This document shows, piece after piece, positions 18,831 to 30,768 of a DNA stretch of 64,000 bases (positions are counted from its first letter, which is position 1; the number at the start of each line of letters is the position of its first letter). The position numbers and the translations under genes are program-made. The notes beneath the pieces were generated by a model. It was not told the origin of the DNA, searched no databases, and was given only the letters and a program-made list of their open reading frames with translations. Source of the DNA: Chlorobium sp. (GTDB lineage: Bacteria; Bacteroidota; Chlorobiia; Chlorobiales; Chlorobiaceae); contig SZXX01000029.1 in the NCBI GenBank assembly GCA_005843825.1, positions 1-64,000 of the forward strand, written 5' to 3'.

Positions 18831-19976
18831 TTAACGAATAGCAATTTCCTCACATATATTTAAATATTTTATAGCTCTGGTGCTCGGAGAATCAAATTCT
18901 TTTACTTTATTTTCACCTTTTTTAATTAAATCTTTTCGTAATAGTTTATCATTAATAATCATAGCGATTTTTATAGCTATATCTTCTGGATTCAATGGGT
19001 CAAAATATAATGCTGCATCACCACATACTGCTTTTGCAAATGGCAAATCTGAAGTTAATATTGGCTTGCGCATAATCATGGCTTCAGGATAATTAGCTGA
19101 AAAACATTCTAATAATGTAGGGAGGAATAGAGCATCGCACTCTGAATAAAGCTGGGGACATTTACCTACTGAAACTCTTCCGAGGTTTATAATTGATTTT
19201 TTTGCTTCTAATGTAAATGATTGATTATAATTATCTTCATCAATTGTTAGTAGAAATAGTATTTTAAGATCAGGTAAAGTATTTTTTAAAACTGGGACAA
19301 GTGAATTTATTATTTTTAAGTTCTTGTGTGACATATATGAACATAAAGACAGTAAACGAAACTCATTAGATTGTTTTTCAGGCAATAATATATCTCTATG
19401 ATTGCTGCGATCATAGTAAACAGAACTACAGGTATTTGTAACTGTAAATACATATGAATTAGGAATATCAAATAAAACTGAAACTCTATTGGAAATATCA
19501 CTTGTTTCACATACAAAATATTTTCCACATTTTTTGAAGGCTTTTATGTGAATATAGCGTATAAAGGCCCACTTGATTCTTTTATATAAAGTTAAGTGTT
19601 GAAAAAACGGAGAGTCGGGATATACATAGTGTGGTTGAGCATAACCTTGAAGATGAGGACATTCAGGAATCCAGTATGATGGACCAAAAACAGAGAACAC
19701 GACATCAGGTTTAATTTTTATTGCAAGATTTTTTAGTAATCTCCTTGATAGAAATGAATGTAGTATGCCATCATGCATAGGATGCCAAAGGATTTCATAA
19801 AAAATAAAATTAGGTGGATAATTACTCTGATTAATTTCTTTTGAAACTGTTTTGCTTAAAAAAACATGATATTCGTTATTTTTATAAGCTATACATTCAT
19901 GTAAAAAAGATATAACAACTTGTGTAGGTCCAGTAGCACAAATTCCAGCAGCGTTAATAATTAACTTCATTGACAC
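18831..19976 (-). CDS. GT4-family glycosyltransferase
   Basis: A 381-residue GT-B enzyme. The C-terminal half has the GT4 pattern: SLCSYMSHKNL at the start of the second domain, the acid-rich motif ECFSANYPEAMIMRKPILTSD (E-x7-E), then ALYFDPLNPEDIA. These enzymes keep the sugar configuration and transfer from a nucleotide sugar at the cytoplasmic face of the membrane. The first ATG is at 19976, one base into the neighbouring stop, so it is coupled to the gene upstream. Base composition is AT-rich. Confidence 0.85.
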   Translation of the reverse strand: MSMKLIINAAGICATGPTQVVISFLHECIAYKNNEYHVFLSKTVSKEINQSNYPPNFIFYEILWHPMHDGILHSFLSRRLLKNLAIKIKPDVVFSVFGPSYWIPECPHLQGYAQPHYVYPDSPFFQHLTLYKRIKWAFIRYIHIKAFKKCGKYFVCETSDISNRVSVLFDIPNSYVFTVTNTCSSVYYDRSNHRDILLPEKQSNEFRLLSLCSYMSHKNLKIINSLVPVLKNTLPDLKILFLLTIDEDNYNQSFTLEAKKSIINLGRVSVGKCPQLYSECDALFLPTLLECFSANYPEAMIMRKPILTSDLPFAKAVCGDAALYFDPLNPEDIAIKIAMIINDKLLRKDLIKKGENKVKEFDSPSTRAIKYLNICEEIAIR

Positions 19977-21073
19977 TAAATCTTAGCCTTTTTTGGAGCG
20001 CCTAAAATAAAATTATAATATCCCTTACCAATAAGATTAACGGAATATTTATGGATACTTTCTTTTCCATTATATCCAAATTCATCACGTAGTTCAACGC
20101 TATTCATAAGAATTAAAAGCTTTTCTTTAAAGATTTTATAATCAAATAACGGAACAAGATACCCATTAATTTCATCTCTAATCATATCAGAAGGACCGGC
20201 CATGCAATCAAATGCGACAACAGGTAACCCAGCTGACATTGCCTCACCGATTACATTTGGAAACCCTTCTGAACTTGAGGTAAAAGCAAAGATTTTACTC
20301 ATCAGATAATATTGATCAACGTCTTGACTTTTACCGATCAATACAACTTTATTATGAGCATCAAGTTCCTTAATAAGTATCTGTAAGCGCTCGAAATTAT
20401 TCTGCTTTAAAGCATCACCGCCAACAACTACAAGTTTCCAATCAGGCTTATTAATGCTCACAAACAACCTGATAAGTTCATCATGGTGCTTAGACTTTAT
20501 TAAACGTCCTACAGTAAGTACTATATTTTCCTTTTGTATTTCTGGATTAACATTGATAAATCTAATTGGATTGCCTATAGTTTGAATATTAGATTGCTTA
20601 AATATTTCCCTGTAATGATTTTCTGCTTTTTTTGTTTGTGTGATAATCCCCTTGGCTTTAGGATAAAGCCATTGACGAAGCATATTATGTACCAGGCCAT
20701 AAGTCTTATCCGGCTGACACCGATCTGAAATAAATATAGGAAATGGCAATCTATATAGTGCAAGCAAAATAAAACTGTTCCAATATTCACCAAAGCTTAA
20801 AATAGAATCTGGCTTGAGTGCCTTAACTGTGCGACGAATAAAATATAGTGTTTTTAGTGAGTACCACGCTCTTTTTTGATTATTAAACTCAAAGTATGGT
20901 TTGTGAACTATTACATTGGAAGGAATGTGATAAAATATATCACGATTCATACCATAAATGACAAGATGCACTTCGATCTCTGGGTCTTGAACAAAATATG
21001 TTGCAAGCTCTGCCATAACTCGCTCCATACCTCCAAGGCCAAGGCAAGGAATAACTAGTGCAAGACGTTTCAT
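19976..21073 (-). CDS. GT4-family glycosyltransferase
   Basis: The ATG at 21073 gives a 365-residue protein starting MKRLALVIPCLGLGGMERV, the usual N-terminus of GT4 enzymes (GGMERV). The second domain has VGRLIKSKHHDELI and the catalytic motif EGFPNVIGEAMSAGLPVVAFD. It starts one base after the stop of the ATP-grasp gene. A longer start at 21112 would overlap that gene. It adds one sugar to the growing lipid-linked repeat unit; the sugar cannot be told from the sequence. Confidence 0.88.
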   Translation of the reverse strand: MKRLALVIPCLGLGGMERVMAELATYFVQDPEIEVHLVIYGMNRDIFYHIPSNVIVHKPYFEFNNQKRAWYSLKTLYFIRRTVKALKPDSILSFGEYWNSFILLALYRLPFPIFISDRCQPDKTYGLVHNMLRQWLYPKAKGIITQTKKAENHYREIFKQSNIQTIGNPIRFINVNPEIQKENIVLTVGRLIKSKHHDELIRLFVSINKPDWKLVVVGGDALKQNNFERLQILIKELDAHNKVVLIGKSQDVDQYYLMSKIFAFTSSSEGFPNVIGEAMSAGLPVVAFDCMAGPSDMIRDEINGYLVPLFDYKIFKEKLLILMNSVELRDEFGYNGKESIHKYSVNLIGKGYYNFILGAPKKAKI

Positions 21074-21074
21074 T

Positions 21075-22088
21075 TTATACTGATTTAAGCAATCCGTCAA
21101 CCATCCATGCATAAGGATTAAATCTACCTTCGTACCAGTTCATATTCTTATCCCAATATCCAACACATGGATCATATACTTCTGCAGAAAATCCATAACT
21201 AATTTCGACTACTAGTGGCTTTTCATTTTGATACACATAATCAAAAGCAACACATTGAGTTTGAAGTTTTTTTGCTAAATCAAATGACAATCTTATAGTT
21301 GCATCATTGAAATTATTTTTTTCATAGGATATATTTCCACTACCAGAGGCTTTAAAATCATTTTTTCTATTAATTCGCTTTATAGCAAATGCTTTTTCAT
21401 AGATAACAATAACACGTATATCACAATCATTATTTTCTATGTAATCCTGAAAGTAAACATACCCTCGTTCACGTCCAATATTTGCGGAGTACTCAGGCTC
21501 TTTAACTATTCTTAAAAAAGTTTTCAACATTGAGGTTGAATCTATTAAGCCCAAATTATACTTTCTCCATTGTTCTTTTATAACAGGAAAAGATCGATAC
21601 TGCCTAAATCCTTTTCCAAAGGCAATATTGAGTACCTTTAATGCGTTTCTTTTATTATTTATGAGCGATACATTACATGAACCAGCTCCCCTCCGAAGCT
21701 TGAATACTTTTGGAAATATAGCTTTGCTTATCCACTCATATGCTTCTTTTTTGGTATAAAAAATATATGAAGGGACTAAAGGCATTCCCATTGATTCTAA
21801 TAAATACTTTTGTCCAAGCTTATCATCAAAATGCCAATTAGTTTTAAAGTCAGGGAAAACTATTTTACCAGAATGTTCTAAAGAAAAAAGCAACTGTTTT
21901 GCAAAAAGAATGTCTTTCGGGCTCATATGGTGATGATGCCACATTATAATATCACAGTTTTTTATTTGGTCAATAACATCATTTTTATAGCAATCGATAA
22001 CCTTATATTTAATACATTGATTTTCACAATACTCAATCCATCGCTTACTAAATGACTGATCATTTCTATGACTAACAATACCAATCAT
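21075..22088 (-). CDS. ATP-grasp domain protein
   Basis: A 337-residue protein with an N-terminal pre-ATP-grasp fold and, from about residue 90, a RimK-like ATP-grasp region: FPKVFKLRRGAGSCNVSL (glycine-rich loop after a Lys), FQDYIENNDCDIRVIVI, AFAIKR and FDYVYQNEKPLVVEIS (metal-binding E). ATP-grasp enzymes make acyl-phosphates and ligate an amine or thiol. In polysaccharide loci they usually attach an amino acid to a sugar carboxylate or amine. It begins 4 bases after an acetyltransferase gene. The partner substrate is unknown. Confidence 0.75.
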   Translation of the reverse strand: MIGIVSHRNDQSFSKRWIEYCENQCIKYKVIDCYKNDVIDQIKNCDIIMWHHHHMSPKDILFAKQLLFSLEHSGKIVFPDFKTNWHFDDKLGQKYLLESMGMPLVPSYIFYTKKEAYEWISKAIFPKVFKLRRGAGSCNVSLINNKRNALKVLNIAFGKGFRQYRSFPVIKEQWRKYNLGLIDSTSMLKTFLRIVKEPEYSANIGRERGYVYFQDYIENNDCDIRVIVIYEKAFAIKRINRKNDFKASGSGNISYEKNNFNDATIRLSFDLAKKLQTQCVAFDYVYQNEKPLVVEISYGFSAEVYDPCVGYWDKNMNWYEGRFNPYAWMVDGLLKSV

Positions 22089-22919: not shown

Positions 22920-23630
22920 TTATATTACGGAATCCTTGTCTAGCATTGAGAGCATTCGCGCGGCCGCACTAGCAGCTCCAAATCCATTGTCAATGTTTAC
23001 GACTGTTATCCCCTGCGCACATGAAGACAGAGAAGCATTCAGTGCGGTCTGCCCTTGAAAAGCAGCGCCATAGCCTGTGGACGTTGGAATTGCAATAATT
23101 GGTTGATGAAAATATCCGCCACATACAGAAACTAACGCTGCATCCATCCCTGCTACGACGAGAATAATTTTAGCAAGAGAGATGGCATCTGCTGCATCAA
23201 AAAATCGCTGAATACCAGCAACACCAATATCGGGAAAAATGCGGGACTGTATTCCAAAGTATGCCAGTGTGAGTGCCGCTTCATTACAAACACGAAAGTC
23301 GGATGATCCACCGCTTACAATAGATACCTGATACTTCTCTGCACTATGAACTCGAGAATAACGCTCTAGAGTCTCACCATTATTGATTAACAAGCAGGCT
23401 GCACTTTCAATCCATTTCGCGGATGTATAATTTTCCGCAAGATAAACCCCATCAATCGGAATAATTCTTGTAAACAGTGCTTCTTCAGCAGATTCTTTAC
23501 AGATGTCGCAGATAGTTTCAAGCTGGAGCCTGGATTTGTTTTCCGCAAGAACTACTTCCTGTTGCCCAATTCGCTCAAACCGCTGTGTGTCGATATTTAG
23601 ATGCATTTTTATTGATTCAAACGTAACCAT
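22920..23630 (-). CDS. larB: LarB, NPN cofactor biosynthesis carboxylase/hydrolase
   Basis: The 236-residue protein has a PurE-like C-terminal domain: VSGGSSDFRVCNEAALT (residues 105-121), VVAGMDAALVSVCGGYFHQP and IPTSTGYGAAFQGQTALNASL, with C204 in SLSSCAQGI where the catalytic Cys of L. plantarum LarB lies. LarB carboxylates C5 of nicotinic acid adenine dinucleotide and cleaves the phosphoanhydride, giving the dicarboxylated mononucleotide, the first step to the nickel-pincer nucleotide (NPN). The start overlaps larE by 14 bases. No larA is nearby. The C-terminus (MLDKDSVI) differs from that of the adjacent larB remnant. Confidence 0.9.
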   Translation of the reverse strand: MVTFESIKMHLNIDTQRFERIGQQEVVLAENKSRLQLETICDICKESAEEALFTRIIPIDGVYLAENYTSAKWIESAACLLINNGETLERYSRVHSAEKYQVSIVSGGSSDFRVCNEAALTLAYFGIQSRIFPDIGVAGIQRFFDAADAISLAKIILVVAGMDAALVSVCGGYFHQPIIAIPTSTGYGAAFQGQTALNASLSSCAQGITVVNIDNGFGAASAAARMLSMLDKDSVI

Positions 23631-24429
23631 TACCCCTCTGATACGTGCCCACTAAGATATCATGTGGAGTAAGACCAAAGAGTTCACCAACAGAATTTTT
23701 CAGTTCATCCTTGAACTCATCATTTATCAGATTTCGTTTGACTGGGTCAATTTCCAAAACAACCCTTCCAGTGCCGAAACGGCATCGGTGGTTACCAATA
23801 CCAATTGCTGCTGTGAGAAGTTCCTCCACCTCCTCAATTTTGCCGAGCACAACCGAGCTGATTCGAGTCCCAGTAAAAATACGACTTGACAGACAAGGTG
23901 AGGATGGTGCTGACGCAAGTTCAGATAGGCCCAAGATTCTGGCTAGTAAACGAATCTCATTTTTTCCGTATCCAGCCTCGATAAAAGGATGCCGAACATT
24001 AAAGTCTGCTGCCGCTTTCAATCCAGGACGAAAATCATCCAAATCGTCTCGATTTGCGCCAGTAAGGACAATTGCTTCTGGAAAATTACGTCTGATTTCT
24101 TCAAAAAGATTAGACTTACAATAGAAGCAGCGATCAATTGTATTTTCAAGATAGCGCTCATCCTGAAATTCAGATGGTGTGATAATATTCAGATCAGCTC
24201 CTGCGTCATGAGCAATTGCCTTAAGCTGCTCGGTGTGCTTCTTTGGTACAGCAGGAGTCTTGGCGTGTGCCCAAACCAGCTTGTCTTTATCTATCGAGAG
24301 ACGATGGAGCAGAAGGACAAGTGAGGTACTGTCGACTCCACCCGATACTGCGACAACAATAGTTTGCGGTTGCGAAAGGTATTCCTGAAATATTTGAAGA
24401 TTGTCAAGTAAACTTATTTCAGACATCAT
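23617..24429 (-). CDS. larE: LarE, ATP-dependent sulfur transferase of NPN synthesis
   Basis: The 270-residue PP-loop protein has SGGVDST (residues 29-35), the RCFYCKSNLF motif with C101 and C104, TGANRDDLDDFRPGL, and C179 in SSPCLSSRI, the position of the sacrificial Cys (C176 in L. plantarum). LarE adenylates the carboxylates of the LarB product and converts them to thiocarboxylates, giving up its Cys sulfur each time in the sacrificial type. It overlaps larC by 11 bases and larB by 14, so the three are coupled. The order larC-larE-larB suits making the whole cofactor from one mRNA. Confidence 0.92.
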   Translation of the reverse strand: MMSEISLLDNLQIFQEYLSQPQTIVVAVSGGVDSTSLVLLLHRLSIDKDKLVWAHAKTPAVPKKHTEQLKAIAHDAGADLNIITPSEFQDERYLENTIDRCFYCKSNLFEEIRRNFPEAIVLTGANRDDLDDFRPGLKAAADFNVRHPFIEAGYGKNEIRLLARILGLSELASAPSSPCLSSRIFTGTRISSVVLGKIEEVEELLTAAIGIGNHRCRFGTGRVVLEIDPVKRNLINDEFKDELKNSVGELFGLTPHDILVGTYQRGNGYV

Positions 24430-25636
24430 TTCTATCCTCTTTATCGTAAAACATGGTTTTTATTTTTGAAGTGAGCACTTCAGATTCGCGAAAGTTTAAG
24501 CCAATTAAAGCATCACTCTCAGGTTTTACCGTTGTCCCTGATGGGCGGTTGATAATCTTTACCGGAAGATCTGCAATCGTGTCCATTTTTCGCTTGAGAA
24601 CCTGTCGGCTGACACCACGCAGTCTGATGCCAATAGTTGATGTAAGATCAAAGCACAGACAACAAACATGCTCAACCTTTGCCGATTCCACAATTAGACG
24701 TACTGAGATAGCGATACGCGCCTTTTTACCAAGCACAGAGTAACTGACCAGATCGATGACCCCAGGCGCTTTGCGCAACGATTCCAGCCCAAGCGCCAAA
24801 GACTCTGAAGTCATGTCGTCCACTTCAAAACAAATCTCCTGAATATACTCAGCTAACTCATTATAATCTGGCATCCCTCCCCTATCATCTTCAAACAAGT
24901 CTAGAAAAAGAACATTCGGTCGGTCTTTTCGCTCTCGAGTACCCATGCCTGAGCCGGAATACCTTAGCGTTCCTCCTTGCCAGTTATTTATTTTATCGGG
25001 CTTCAGGTATGAAAGTATTGCTGCTCCTGTCGGGGTTATGCATTCACCTGCATTAACACCCGGAGCAAAATCGAATCCATGGAGAAGGAGTCTCACTGCA
25101 GGAGCAAATGCCGGGTATTCTCCATGACTCATGCTTATTGTTCCAACAGAGAGTGGTAACGGATGGTAGAACCAGTTTGAATCTCCAAGACGATCAATAA
25201 TAAAGCTAGCAGCGGCAATATCGAATATTGAATCTAAGGACCCTACCTCATGGAAGTGAATCAATTCGGGAGTGATCCCATGTACGCGAGCCTCTGCATC
25301 GGCAAGTATTGAGAATATAGCTGCGTAAATGTCCTTCTGATTCTGGGTCCAGTCGCTTTTACGAGCGTAGTCAAGAACCTCATCAATATGATGGTGATGG
25401 TGATCTTCGGAATGATCTTCCTCGTTAACGTCGAGCTTAAGCTGAGTTGCAGATATACCAACTGTTGTTTTTTCAGAAAAACTGAATGAGATTCCATGAA
25501 GCGGAGAAGTGTTTATGAATTCCATCAGTTCATCAACAGTAAAAACCTGAGCGGAATAAGCAGCACAAAGAAACATGTCACCGCTGATACCGCCTAAGGG
25601 GTTTAGTATTTTGGAATAAGTATGTTGATGGGGCAT
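24419..25636 (-). CDS. larC: LarC, nickel insertion enzyme of NPN synthesis
   Basis: The ATG at 25636 gives 405 residues; a TTG five codons upstream (25651) is the alternative start. The protein opens with LNPLGGISGDMFLCA, has a His cluster (SEDHHHHHIDEV, about residues 76-86) that can hold nickel, HEVGSLDSIFDIAAASF, and CITPTGAAIL, all typical of LarC. It is a single uninterrupted gene, unlike the L. plantarum larC1/larC2 pair joined by a programmed frameshift. LarC is a CTP-dependent cyclometallase that puts nickel into the pincer ligand. About 75 bases of repeats separate it from the DUF362 gene upstream. Confidence 0.92.
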   Translation of the reverse strand: MPHQHTYSKILNPLGGISGDMFLCAAYSAQVFTVDELMEFINTSPLHGISFSFSEKTTVGISATQLKLDVNEEDHSEDHHHHHIDEVLDYARKSDWTQNQKDIYAAIFSILADAEARVHGITPELIHFHEVGSLDSIFDIAAASFIIDRLGDSNWFYHPLPLSVGTISMSHGEYPAFAPAVRLLLHGFDFAPGVNAGECITPTGAAILSYLKPDKINNWQGGTLRYSGSGMGTRERKDRPNVLFLDLFEDDRGGMPDYNELAEYIQEICFEVDDMTSESLALGLESLRKAPGVIDLVSYSVLGKKARIAISVRLIVESAKVEHVCCLCFDLTSTIGIRLRGVSRQVLKRKMDTIADLPVKIINRPSGTTVKPESDALIGLNFRESEVLTSKIKTMFYDKEDRNDV

Positions 25637-25651
25637 AAAATCAGTGGGCAA

Positions 25652-25729
25652 GGGAAGAAAATAGTTGGCAATTGGCAGTCTTCAGTTGGCAATGGAAGAA
25701 AGAGAGTTGGCTGTAAGATGAAAAGAGCG
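25652..25729. repeat. Spacer repeat between larC and the DUF362 gene
   Basis: GTTGGCAATTGGCAGTC, GTTGGCAATGGAAGAAAGAGAGTTGGC: the GGCAGT repeat family with the linker GAAGAAAGAGAG seen elsewhere. It lies in the gap between the DUF362 gene and larC, which otherwise read as one operon. Confidence 0.85.
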
Positions 25730-27229
25730 CTAATGAATATTATTGGTGATTCCGCATCGTTTCCAGTGTTTTGGAAGTTTGAAGTTGGATGACGGGACTT
25801 CGGAAAGGGGGACTTGCCTAGGTGAATCGTGGGTCACATCAAGGAAACGTGCTGGACCGCGCAGGCCAATGTTGAATTTACTTCTTACATCATAGAGGGC
25901 TGCGGACACAGATTTGATTCTCGCTGTATTGTATCCTATTAATTTTAAGCTAAGCATTTCAACAGCTGCAGGGTTAAATCCACCGTAAAGCATACCTATC
26001 GGTTTGGGTGTCGGAGATAATGGGCCCTCACCCTGACCAGCAATGACGGCATCGACTATTGTGATCACAGGTCGCACGGGAAGATCGTTCAAAGAGTCAG
26101 TGACGGGATCGTAAAAATAGAGGATGTGATTGAGATCAATGATAGTTCTCCACAAAGTATCGTTGCCTGACCATCCACCTCCGGTGATCTTGTCAGCACT
26201 CAACATCCCGGACAGCTTCCATCCAAGACCGAGGGTCTTGCTCAGAAGTGCTCTTATAACGGGGGAAAAACGGTTCGGATCTTTCCAATACCACTCATCC
26301 ATTTCTTCAACGGATGACTTAAAACTCGAACCTGAGTAAAAATTGTCGCCACCGTTCTCATATCCCCCTTTACAATGATGCGGCAGATATTCCTTATGGC
26401 CATTAATACCTACCAAATTTTTGAGGGCGCCAGTAACGCCTGCTTTCATGTGAGTTTTAAGAACTGGGATATTAATAATCAAATTCGCCTCAAATATGCG
26501 TTTAGTGACAAGGTACTTATGGTGGCCACCTGTATGGTGGGGCAACATCAATGATGGATCATAACATGTTACGCGAAATTGCTCTGCGTAGTCTTCTATA
26601 TCTGTCAGAAAACTTCTCTCTGCCAGATCAACAACTTTACAGCGTGACTCATCCCCTTGATTCAAGCGCAGCCCCGCAGCTCTGCCAACAAAGCGCTGCC
26701 TGTCCATAACGGTTAATCGCCAATCTTCGATAATAAACCGGATATTCGGATAACGTGGCTGCAGGAAATTAATCAGTTCGTCAATACGTGTAACCTGTCG
26801 TAATTGCTTAAAGTCGCAACTCTGCAGTGGAGCATCGGCGATGACAATTGTGCCATCGTACTCTAACGCTTTAGCTACGTAGTCAATAAGCGGACGAATC
26901 ACACTGGTATGGGTCAAAAGAGAGTCTGTGCCTGCTGAATGATTAGCATTGTAATCCATTACCCAGTTGGGCTTTAGCAGCACCATATCGCACCGAGATA
27001 CGAAACCGGCAAAAGGATTCCACCGTTCTGTTCCAACATTTGCAGAATCAAGACCAAGACCTGCGAGGATGCTACGGACAGAACTATAGACTTCGTTGGA
27101 TATACAGCCGGGGTTGTGCTTGTCAGCAGAATTAATTTTGATGAGTTCAGGAAAGGACTCAGATGGCTCATAAGGAAAAGAGGGATATTCACTATCTCCT
27201 TTGGTGTAGGCTACGTCAGAGTTCATCAT
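25730..27229 (-). CDS. DUF362 protein, candidate nickel-pincer-cofactor enzyme
   Basis: A 499-residue soluble protein with the DUF362 signature: VLLKPNWV (K86), LLTHTSVIRPLIDY, IVIADAPLQ, then INIPVLKTHMKAGVTGALKN (residues 252-271) and VGINGHKEYLPHHC. Other parts fit the family, including DPVTDSL and a last GGFNPAAVEM. There is no CxxCxxC ferredoxin site, which some DUF362 proteins have. H260, K270 ten residues on, and H284/H285 match the spacing recalled for LarA (H174, K184 that holds the cofactor covalently, H200). Further His pairs at 231-232 and 236-237. The gene overlaps the second deacetylase by 14 bases and precedes larC. A role as the user of NPN is inference. Confidence 0.75.
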   Translation of the reverse strand: MMNSDVAYTKGDSEYPSFPYEPSESFPELIKINSADKHNPGCISNEVYSSVRSILAGLGLDSANVGTERWNPFAGFVSRCDMVLLKPNWVMDYNANHSAGTDSLLTHTSVIRPLIDYVAKALEYDGTIVIADAPLQSCDFKQLRQVTRIDELINFLQPRYPNIRFIIEDWRLTVMDRQRFVGRAAGLRLNQGDESRCKVVDLAERSFLTDIEDYAEQFRVTCYDPSLMLPHHTGGHHKYLVTKRIFEANLIINIPVLKTHMKAGVTGALKNLVGINGHKEYLPHHCKGGYENGGDNFYSGSSFKSSVEEMDEWYWKDPNRFSPVIRALLSKTLGLGWKLSGMLSADKITGGGWSGNDTLWRTIIDLNHILYFYDPVTDSLNDLPVRPVITIVDAVIAGQGEGPLSPTPKPIGMLYGGFNPAAVEMLSLKLIGYNTARIKSVSAALYDVRSKFNIGLRGPARFLDVTHDSPRQVPLSEVPSSNFKLPKHWKRCGITNNIH

Positions 27230-28376
27230 GTGTGATTACTTCTTTTTTTCCTGAAACCAGATCGGCTAACTGATCAGATGAGAGGAACTCTACATCTGGC
27301 CAGCGGTTTGTAATTGCAAGCAACAACCTCTTAAGGTGATTAAGATTTTGTTCTCTATTTGAGGGATTTAAAAAACCCATAAAATTCAGACGGTGAGTAG
27401 AGATGATGGTGGGTTTATGCCATGCAAACGCAGTCTGGATTCGAGCAAGGCAGTTAGGTACCGGATCAAGACCGACTGTTAGTGATGGTTCAAAAAAGCA
27501 GTTCCTAACAATATAGTACTGCGCTCGATGGTTACGTTGCCCGGTATAATGATACCTTTTTTTGTATGAACCGCCATTTCCAAAAATTGGCATATACTGT
27601 AATTGTATCCCCTGTAATGCTCGAACTCCATTATCAGAAAGAATATCTTCAACCTCTCTGTTCCATGTGTAACATGGCGGAATAGACGTTAGTGATGAGT
27701 AACCCATTAACTGATGAAAAAGTTGTAACCCATCAATAAGTATTGTTTTTAACTGCAAAAGCTCTTCTGAACTTTCAGCGGCAAAAGCATCACAATACTC
27801 ACTGCGACAACTTGAGTTAATACCAGTATGCAAAGTGAACATATTCGAATTAAAAGCCATTAGAGCGTAATCATCCCCGCCCTGCAATGCTCGCATCCAA
27901 CGTGCAACATTCAAATGCTCTCTTCCATGAAACTGAGGTTTGAAAAGCTTCTCGCTTATCCCTTTCTTATAAAGGCTATAAACCTGATCATGAACTGGAT
28001 AACGGTCCAGTGTTTTAGTAAACGGTTCATAATAGTATTTCTGAAATCCACTCTCGCGAATCTTTTCAAAATCAGGATTTGCCATTACAGAATTCGCCGT
28101 CAGTAGTGCAGGATTACCGTATAAATCTTTAACAGCTCCAAGCACATCAAACAACCGCAAAAGATCATCGTTGCACTCAAGAGCATCGAAACTATTGTAT
28201 GGACATTTATCTACAGGGAACCCTTTTTTGAGAAAATAATTATAAGCCTCCTTTGAGGCCATACGTATACTTCCCCAGTCATCAGACTCAATAACTACAA
28301 TTTTCCTTTTAGTGCGCCAACCTGGAATATTGAGAAAATTGCGGGTAAATGAAGACTTTATGTTATTAAAACTCAT
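27216..28376 (-). CDS. Polysaccharide deacetylase-like protein, paralogue 2
   Basis: The 386-residue protein has a NodB-like metal site: SDDWGSIRM (D32, D33), H150-x3-H154 in QFHGREHLNVARWM and STHRLNF near the end. These residues are expected to hold a divalent metal and remove acetyl groups from N-acetyl sugars. It starts with MSFNN directly after its paralogue; the two share the same motif order and about the same length, so they are a tandem duplicate. It overlaps the DUF362 gene at its 3' end, which ties the pair to that protein. The acetylated substrate is unknown. Confidence 0.75.
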   Translation of the reverse strand: MSFNNIKSSFTRNFLNIPGWRTKRKIVVIESDDWGSIRMASKEAYNYFLKKGFPVDKCPYNSFDALECNDDLLRLFDVLGAVKDLYGNPALLTANSVMANPDFEKIRESGFQKYYYEPFTKTLDRYPVHDQVYSLYKKGISEKLFKPQFHGREHLNVARWMRALQGGDDYALMAFNSNMFTLHTGINSSCRSEYCDAFAAESSEELLQLKTILIDGLQLFHQLMGYSSLTSIPPCYTWNREVEDILSDNGVRALQGIQLQYMPIFGNGGSYKKRYHYTGQRNHRAQYYIVRNCFFEPSLTVGLDPVPNCLARIQTAFAWHKPTIISTHRLNFMGFLNPSNREQNLNHLKRLLLAITNRWPDVEFLSSDQLADLVSGKKEVITHDEL

Positions 28377-29491
28377 TAGGACTGTCCCATCAATTCACCT
28401 AGATCTACGGAGCTAAGAAATTCAACATCGGGCCATATCTTAAGAGCTCTATCTAAAAGTAGTCTAAGCTGCTGCAAACCGTTGGATCTATTTGTGACAT
28501 CAAGCGCACCAATGTAATTAACACGATGTGAACTGATAACAGCAGGTTTATGACAACGAAAAGCACTATTAATATCATTCATACAGCTGTCAACCCAGTC
28601 TTTTCCAAGCTCACTTGGCTCAAAAAAACAATTCCGAGAGATATAATACTGGCCATGCTGATTGAGCTGACCAGGATAATGATATCTTTTTTTCATCCTC
28701 CCTTCACCAATGGGCTCATTTTGAATTTTTTCAGCAAAGATAAAACGAATGCCCTCAGAAGCAGCAACCGACTCAAGTTGGTTGTTGAAGGGGCCATTAG
28801 GAGGAACAAAATATGATGCACTGTATCCAAATAACTGCTTAAAAAGTCTCAAGCCATCTTTAATAATTTCGACTTGAAAAGGAAGTTGTTTTTGATGATC
28901 AAGATCAAAAGCAGCCAAATACGAAATACCAAAAGGATGCGAATTGTTAAACCCCCATAACCCCTGATCAAAAGCAAAGCGAGCGTCGACATCATTCATC
29001 TTAAGAGCCTTCATCCAAACAGCAACGTTCAGATGTTCTCGACCGTGAAACTGAGGTAAAAATATTTTATTTTGAATTCCTTCTAACCACAAAGGAAACG
29101 GAGTATCAGAACCGTAATAACGCTCCAAGGTCTTAGTAAATGGTTCGTAATGATATTCATTGAATTCACTATCACGAATCTTATTAAAGTCAGGATTAGC
29201 AACAATAGTAAGAGCTGTAATTATAGGGCAATTGTCGTTCACATCGCGAAATGTAGATAACACTTCAAACAAAAGTGATAAATCATCTTTATTTGCAAGG
29301 GTATCATATTGGTTGTAACGAAGGGAATAACCTGAAGAATCAAGTCCTTTTTTTAATATAGCATCAAAAGCATGCGTTGAAGGCATTCTTATTGCACCCC
29401 AATCATCTGACTCTATAATAATAATTTTTCTGTTAGTCGTCCATCCAATACTATTTCTGATAAAAGCACGAAGGTTGTTATTAAAACTCAT
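28376..29491 (-). CDS. Polysaccharide deacetylase-like protein, paralogue 1
   Basis: The ATG at 29491 makes an ATGA overlap with the polymerase gene and gives the same MSFNN opening as the second copy; a start at 29503 adds only four residues. The 371-residue protein has SDDWGAIRM (D29, D30), QFHGREHLNVAVWMKAL with H149 and H153, and SSHRVNY. The two copies share the order and spacing of all metal-site motifs but differ in the middle, as expected if each now has its own sugar target. It is the first gene of the run leading through DUF362 to larB. Confidence 0.75.
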   Translation of the reverse strand: MSFNNNLRAFIRNSIGWTTNRKIIIIESDDWGAIRMPSTHAFDAILKKGLDSSGYSLRYNQYDTLANKDDLSLLFEVLSTFRDVNDNCPIITALTIVANPDFNKIRDSEFNEYHYEPFTKTLERYYGSDTPFPLWLEGIQNKIFLPQFHGREHLNVAVWMKALKMNDVDARFAFDQGLWGFNNSHPFGISYLAAFDLDHQKQLPFQVEIIKDGLRLFKQLFGYSASYFVPPNGPFNNQLESVAASEGIRFIFAEKIQNEPIGEGRMKKRYHYPGQLNQHGQYYISRNCFFEPSELGKDWVDSCMNDINSAFRCHKPAVISSHRVNYIGALDVTNRSNGLQQLRLLLDRALKIWPDVEFLSSVDLGELMGQS

Positions 29492-30768
29492 AGATGAAAC
29501 CATCTAAATATGGTATTAAACAAAGAAATATGGATATTATAATATGATAGAATAATGGTAAAAGGAAAGAACAAAATTATATTTAAAGATTCAGAACCTT
29601 GCCTTAAGACAATAATAAAATTTAAAATAAATATAAGAACCCCAATGTAGTTTATTAGGAATAAACGACGAGAAAGAATGCCTGAATTAATAATAGAGAG
29701 ATAAGTATTTGCAAATAAATAGAAAAGTATTTTAAATCTTCCGCCTGATGGAATAACAGAAAAAAAATTAACAAAAGATAATAAAAAGATAATAAACGAA
29801 TACAATCTACGAAGAGACTTGCTTTGCTTTATATTCCTTGCTAGCCGCAAATAATATATAGTCGCAATAATAAAATACCAGTAAAGAGCATACCCGATAA
29901 ATTGCAATTCAAATCTGAGTGAATTTTTAGATTCTTTTACATATTGAACGTAATCATCGTTGACATAGGAAGAGACATGAGAAGAAATGCCTAAAGAAAA
30001 ATAAGAAAGAATTTTATTGATATTATTAAATATAAATTCAGGGAACAAAAAAGATAATAAAAGAAGGAAATAATAAAATATATTTTTCTCACCTATAATT
30101 AAAAAAAGTAATAAAAGTAAATTAAGAGGAAAGTATGAGAAGTGAATAAAAGCTGAAAAAAAAGATAAAAGGATGTAGTTATATTTTTTTAAATAAACAC
30201 AAAAATATGAAGCATAAAAGAAAATATATGTAGCTAACCAAAACCTAATACCATTAATATTACTAATGGGAAGTATAGTTAAAAATGATAATAGAAAAAA
30301 AAGTGAATTTTTACTTTTATTTTTATTATAAAAATAAAAAATAATGTTAACACTTAGAATTAAATAAAAACCAAATATTATCGATAATATTGCATAAAGT
30401 ATATAGGGATTATCAGTGAATCTTGATAAAATAAATGCGATAATAGGAATGACAAAATCTAAGGACCCCGAATCTTCTGATTGAAATGATTTGATGCTAC
30501 TAAAAAAACCTGTTATATCGGTGGATGACATATTAATGAAGGATTTGGCATATGAAATTGAATCAGTACCCTCAATAAAAATATATGTATATCCATATAA
30601 CCCTAAAAACAAAAGAATTAATATCTTAGAATGAAGATATTTGAATTGTTTAACTGAATTAATAAAAGACAAAAAAGGCCATACTATAAATAATAAATAA
30701 TTTCGCTTATGAAACTCATTAGCTTTATTCTTATTGATATATGTCAGTTTATTGTTTTTTTCTAACAT
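29488..30768 (-). CDS. EpsG/Wzy-type polysaccharide polymerase
   Basis: The 426-residue very hydrophobic protein has about eleven membrane segments, with the EpsG-like stretch GYTYIFIEGTDSISYAKSF in an external loop and NINGIRFWLATYIFFYASYF after the mid-region (R-x-W-L-A as in EpsG). EpsG/Wzy proteins join lipid-linked repeat units at the outer face of the inner membrane. It overlaps the GT4 gene upstream by 7 bases and the deacetylase downstream by 4. It is AT-rich with long runs of Ile, Phe and Lys. Confidence 0.8.
   Translation of the reverse strand: MLEKNNKLTYINKNKANEFHKRNYLLFIVWPFLSFINSVKQFKYLHSKILILLFLGLYGYTYIFIEGTDSISYAKSFINMSSTDITGFFSSIKSFQSEDSGSLDFVIPIIAFILSRFTDNPYILYAILSIIFGFYLILSVNIIFYFYNKNKSKNSLFFLLSFLTILPISNINGIRFWLATYIFFYASYFCVYLKKYNYILLSFFSAFIHFSYFPLNLLLLLFLIIGEKNIFYYFLLLLSFLFPEFIFNNINKILSYFSLGISSHVSSYVNDDYVQYVKESKNSLRFELQFIGYALYWYFIIATIYYLRLARNIKQSKSLRRLYSFIIFLLSFVNFFSVIPSGGRFKILFYLFANTYLSIINSGILSRRLFLINYIGVLIFILNFIIVLRQGSESLNIILFFPFTIILSYYNIHISLFNTIFRWFHL

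Follow-up and report, generated by a model that had tools for sequence, protein, structure and literature searches.

The window analyzed here, a 64,000-nucleotide stretch of the green sulfur bacterium Chlorobium sp. (GCA_005843825.1, contig SZXX01000029.1, positions 1-64,000 of the forward strand), carries within a glycan locus a larB-larE-larC operon, whose sequences identify it as a putative set of nickel-pincer nucleotide (NPN) biosynthesis genes, and, immediately upstream, a gene for a DUF362 protein. We propose that this DUF362 protein is probably the NPN-dependent enzyme of the operon; the basis for this assignment is its homology and fold, the conservation of its residues, its operon position, the absence of larA, and purifying selection. 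Its activity is probably that of an isomerase acting on a hydroxyacid or sugar-acid precursor of the glycan. LarA is, to our knowledge, the only enzyme known to use the NPN cofactor, and ~15% of surveyed genomes contain larB, larE, and larC but lack larA. For the NPN user in such larA-less organisms, the operon gives a concrete candidate, which has a predicted LarA fold yet is invisible to Lar_N searches, and this bears on a stated open question in the field (PMC11796402). In the literature on DUF362, PF04015, or COG2006 in connection with NPN, the only role found was that of an outgroup in LarA trees. An E. coli co-expression system already available makes NPN use by the DUF362 protein testable; if true, it would provide the first function for the DUF362 family.

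The lar genes and the absence of larA

The genes are transcribed from the minus strand in the order deacetylase-like gene 1, deacetylase-like gene 2, DUF362, larC, larE, larB, a hexapeptide acyltransferase gene, and a RimK-like ATP-grasp gene. The initial annotation had described larB, larE, and larC as overlapping, with the DUF362 gene and two overlapping tandem deacetylases upstream, all inside a glycan locus, and every coordinate of this arrangement was confirmed. larB (22920..23630), encoding a member of the nicotinic acid adenine dinucleotide carboxylase/hydrolase family, overlaps larE (23617..24429), encoding the sulfur insertase, by 14 bp, and larE overlaps larC (24419..25651), encoding the CTP-dependent nickel insertase, by 11 bp. 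The DUF362 gene (25730..27229) in turn overlaps deacetylase-like gene 2 by 14 bp, and the two deacetylase-like genes overlap by 1 bp; the sole non-overlapping interval from deacetylase-like gene 1 through larB is the gap of ~90 bp between the DUF362 gene and larC, for which an ATG at 25636 is a more likely start than the TTG at 25651.

The complete larB-larE-larC set claimed at the outset was borne out, since the three contiguous genes all encode proteins above the curated NCBIfam cut-offs: LarB scored 218.8 bits (NF033503, cut-off 175), LarE 200.8 bits (TIGR00268, cut-off 150), and LarC1/LarC2 141 and 76 bits (TIGR00299 and NF052512, cut-offs 90 and 50). LarE retains the ATP motif SGGVDS together with cysteines C101, C104, and C179, a CXXC-C arrangement that marks the [4Fe-4S]-type LarE (PMC9283937). 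The lar set is divergent; LarC has a PF01969 score of 252 bits against about 450 for typical members and 30-33% identity to the nearest larC of the sampled genomes (<=36.5% on plasmids); among plasmids, viral contigs, and 394 Bacteroidota genomes, no source above ~37% identity was found outside the sister genome G141, a member of the same genus that is listed as 100% complete and carries the same cassette. Comparison with this genome gave ratios of nonsynonymous to synonymous substitution (dN/dS) of 0.09 for larB, 0.13 for larE, 0.16 for larC, and 0.19 for the DUF362 gene, and the values for the three lar genes, obtained between two species, point to purifying selection on larBEC. In G141, larE (L008:14300-14765) has lost any in-frame start codon close to the N-terminus, perhaps through a genuine frameshift or through a mistake in the assembly; the codons downstream are conserved.

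No larA was found alongside these genes, as the initial annotation had stated, nor elsewhere in the genome: a search with the PF09861 (Lar_N) profile returned no match in the 2.55-Mb assembly (57 contigs, 97.95% complete), including the DUF362 protein itself, and none in G141, which argues against an overlooked larA. The same genome contains exactly one PF04015 gene, located in the lar operon. A Rhizobium plasmid carries an overlapping operon in the order larA-larC-larE-larB, and the window has DUF362-larC-larE-larB, so that the DUF362 gene occupies the slot of larA.

Relationship of the DUF362 protein to LarA

The DUF362 protein matches PF04015 with 87.5 bits (cut-off 24). DUF362 and DUF2088 are united in Pfam clan CL0471 (PMC11770544); because this kinship is already recorded there, the novelty of our proposal lies in cofactor use and not in homology. 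An AlphaFold2 (AF2) model built on an alignment of 67 homologs had a predicted local distance difference test score (pLDDT) of 91.4 and a predicted template modeling score of 0.93. When this model was compared with the Protein Data Bank by Foldseek, all ten matches with E <=1e-3 belonged to the LarA family, and VIA gave Z scores of 15.2-16.4 to 12 LarA entries over 220-246 residues, the next fold reaching only 6.0. The modeled fold thus makes the protein a remote LarA relative and a predicted member of the LarA superfamily (CL0471), although it lies outside Lar_N by profile.

At the residue level, hhalign pairs H259 (codon 26450..26452, minus strand, numbered from the Met at 27226) with the catalytic H174 of LarA, K269 (26420..26422) with K184, the NPN tether, and H284 (26375..26380 together with H283) with the nickel ligand H200. 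The aligned stretch reads KTH259-MKAGVTGAL-K269 against H174-x9-K184, giving the same His-Lys spacing of 10 as in LarA, and the pattern H-x9-K-x15-H recurs in LarA proteins encoded by other genomes. Across the 67 homologs, H259, K269, and H283 are invariant (67/67) and H284 is present in 63. The 4Fe-4S DUF362 proteins carry a form of the motif, HExxGFGGALKN, that is intermediate between LarA and the window protein, although their ferredoxin motifs are absent from the latter.

Compared with the LarA (Lar_N/DUF2088) racemases and epimerases, the window protein shares the predicted NPN-domain fold, the H-x9-K motif with a downstream His, and the larC-larE-larB gene order, but differs in having no Pfam Lar_N match, KPN in place of the D-x-x-R region, a distinct C-terminal part, and a glycan-locus setting. 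Another related system is LarA_Sp and LarA_Bw, a single-histidine LarA subfamily with a proposed role in carbohydrate metabolism (PMC12611868), which resembles the window protein in its retention of one catalytic histidine, the tether Lys, and the nickel His; these proteins, however, retain His108 and lose His174, whereas the window protein retains the His174 equivalent (PMC12611868).

We infer that the window protein works like LarA, and the operon would then be a cassette that encodes both an NPN enzyme and the synthesis of its cofactor. The nickel-pincer nucleotide made by LarB, LarE, and LarC would be attached to Lys269 of the DUF362 protein, and the fourth nickel ligand would probably be His284 (or His283). 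His259 may act as acid/base while hydride transfer would interconvert a hydroxy-acid or sugar-acid precursor, and the product would serve the surface glycan built by the surrounding genes. The initial proposal that the cofactor serves an enzyme encoded next door gains from the LarA fold, the residues, and the larA operon slot, which go beyond adjacency and make the DUF362 protein the best candidate user.

Distribution across genomes and alternative explanations

Our survey of 148 Bacteroidota genomes is consistent with a connection between the two gene families. larC is present in 12 of them, and a DUF362 gene of any kind occurs in 10 of these 12 compared with 14 of the 136 larC-negative genomes; counted by genus with the window genus excluded, the figures are 8/10 against 11/71 (p = 8e-5), and by family p = 0.0017. 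Among the sampled members of the window genus, both larC and DUF362 are restricted to the two cassette-bearing genomes. DUF362 proteins of the window type were found in 50 genomes, 37 of which have larC (25 of these without a Lar_N match >100 bits), a co-presence that is suggestive but confounded by lineage, as larC occurs in 76/120 genomes of one Lachnospiraceae family sample and in 186/246 of a Planctomycetota sample. A DUF362/larC link within Lachnospiraceae (5/5 versus the 76/120 overall) was not significant. The control genomes of Synechococcus elongatus and Haloferax volcanii contain larC and DUF362 and gave no larA match. DUF362 proteins could conceivably be NPN-dependent enzymes in general, forming a widespread second class beside LarA and covering many genomes with larB, larE, and larC but no larA, including those of cyanobacteria and haloarchaea; we regard this extension as tentative and rather doubtful, and if it is true, the window operon would be one self-contained case, with a connection to glycan synthesis.

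Several observations weigh against the DUF362 protein as an NPN enzyme. The hhalign statistics against LarA are weak taken alone (E 0.009, probability 4%), the C-terminal part is unlike the LarA substrate domain, and there is no evident counterpart of His108, the second catalytic histidine of LarA (H259 matches H174), so that a one-histidine mechanism or a different second base is possible. A strong recurring linkage to lar genes, which the initial annotation had named as something to check in other genomes, was rejected: of 80 related loci, a single one, that of the sister genome, has lar genes within 10 kb of a window-type DUF362 gene. DUF362 genes were likewise rare near larC in general, being found in 3 of the 33 neighborhoods where the open reading frame (ORF) scan recovered larC and in none of 60 further ones, although larC there is mostly solitary and unlinked even to larB or larE. 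Window-type DUF362 also occurs without larC in 13/50 genomes, including the single-chromosome genome G165, and a Phycisphaerae-rich clade is mostly larC-negative. Two genomes, G091 and G131, have a glycan-locus DUF362 with the same His-Lys-His motif and lack both larC and larB; together with the 37/50 co-presence, this rules out a strict requirement of DUF362 for larC. The tether Lys and nickel-ligand His at LarA positions are therefore not diagnostic, and the His-Lys-His residues alone are no proof of NPN use, because they are also kept in genomes without larC or larB. DUF362 proteins bearing the motif can thus occur where the cell makes no NPN of its own; either such members use something other than NPN, or these residues do not mark NPN dependence.

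These observations feed the most substantial alternative, in which the lar genes supply NPN to another unrecognized protein, in the locus or elsewhere, and the DUF362 protein acts in the glycan locus independently of them, its LarA-like fold accommodating a different ligand. DUF362 proteins of the same subfamily are indeed common in glycan loci without nearby lar genes and in genomes without larB or larC, and the H-K-H motif is also present in LarA-like DUF2088 proteins of Bacteroidota that lack larC. Against this stand the single PF04015 gene and the lack of PF09861 in the genome, the larA position held by the DUF362 gene, and the joint absence of DUF362 and larC from the other sampled genus members, and we consider this alternative unlikely. 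It is improbable that the lar genes are decaying or nonfunctional passengers of recombination in the glycan locus: LarB, LarE, and LarC have each lost 8-10 of 41-47 near-invariant columns, and the G141 larE start is missing, but their low dN/dS values, the intact ORFs of the window, and the preserved [4Fe-4S] LarE motif argue for function. A larA hidden in the missing ~2% of the draft assembly, which would make DUF362 incidental, is very improbable, as G141 has the same cassette and no PF09861 match. The assignment of the DUF362 protein as the NPN-dependent enzyme of the operon remains the reading that we favor.

A different, shorter DUF362 subfamily (~310 amino acids) adjoins larC in the genomes G066, G151, and G192, where larE is also present and, in one of the three, larB. 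These proteins resemble the window protein in their Pfam DUF362 assignment, H-x9-K motif (HGGAxLTxxMKN), and lar linkage but differ in length, in the polyferredoxin genes alongside in G066 and G151, and in lying outside glycan loci as far as seen. In G066 (L215:6648-11970), the DUF362 gene and two ferredoxin-type genes lie upstream of larC-larE-larB in a genome without a Lar_N match; short DUF362 genes beside larC are found in a Bacteroidales metagenome-assembled genome, with a polyferredoxin gene alongside (L219:4928-9460), and in one of Thermoguttaceae (L233:6586-8844). In the Planctomycetota sample, the frequent larC is usually solitary, away from larB, larE, and larA (L300-L359). A divergent DUF2088 clade (L110-L116 and L172; e.g. 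L111:766-2037, minus strand) with the motif HEVVGMANYNKNxFVGxGGxxGINKSH retains the His-Lys-His pattern and sits in Bacteroidota without larC and without LarB above the cut-off (G031, G051, G062, G093, and G124).

The surrounding glycan locus

The two deacetylase-like genes (gene 2, 27216..28376; gene 1, 28376..29503; both minus strand) encode tandem neighbors with 48% identity. Their description as NodB-like is plausible in view of the motifs ESDDWGS, HGREH, and SxHR but is not proven, as neither protein had a Pfam match above cut-off (gene 1 gave a weak GH57-clan match below it); the AF2 model of a deacetylase-like protein was poor (pLDDT 52). A near-parallel locus in the Bacteroidota genome G091 (L010:2030-9759) carries both deacetylases, the ATP-grasp gene, EpsG, and a DUF362 gene (31% identity) in a genome without larC or larB, which speaks against the suggestion that the deacetylases are NPN partners and makes this locus a natural control for the proposed NPN use. 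They are not demonstrably part of the NPN system and are best read as glycan genes.

The family of the RimK-like ATP-grasp gene (21075..22088, minus strand) recurs beside DUF362 in 11/80 related loci. The adjoining glycosyltransferase gene (19976-21112) is 99% identical to its counterpart in the sister genome, whereas the ATP-grasp gene is only 61% identical (window 19976-22088), and because of this contrast the locus appears to be a mosaic in which alleles have been swapped by recombination. The wider locus contains glycosyltransferases, EpsG, and a UDP-GlcNAc 2-epimerase and, further out, NeuB-type, cytidylyltransferase, DegT, and 4,6-dehydratase genes, a set typical of nonulosonic acids. 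At the window edge, a short plus-strand ORF (11-319) resembles, as judged by eye, the start of an IS3-type transposase.

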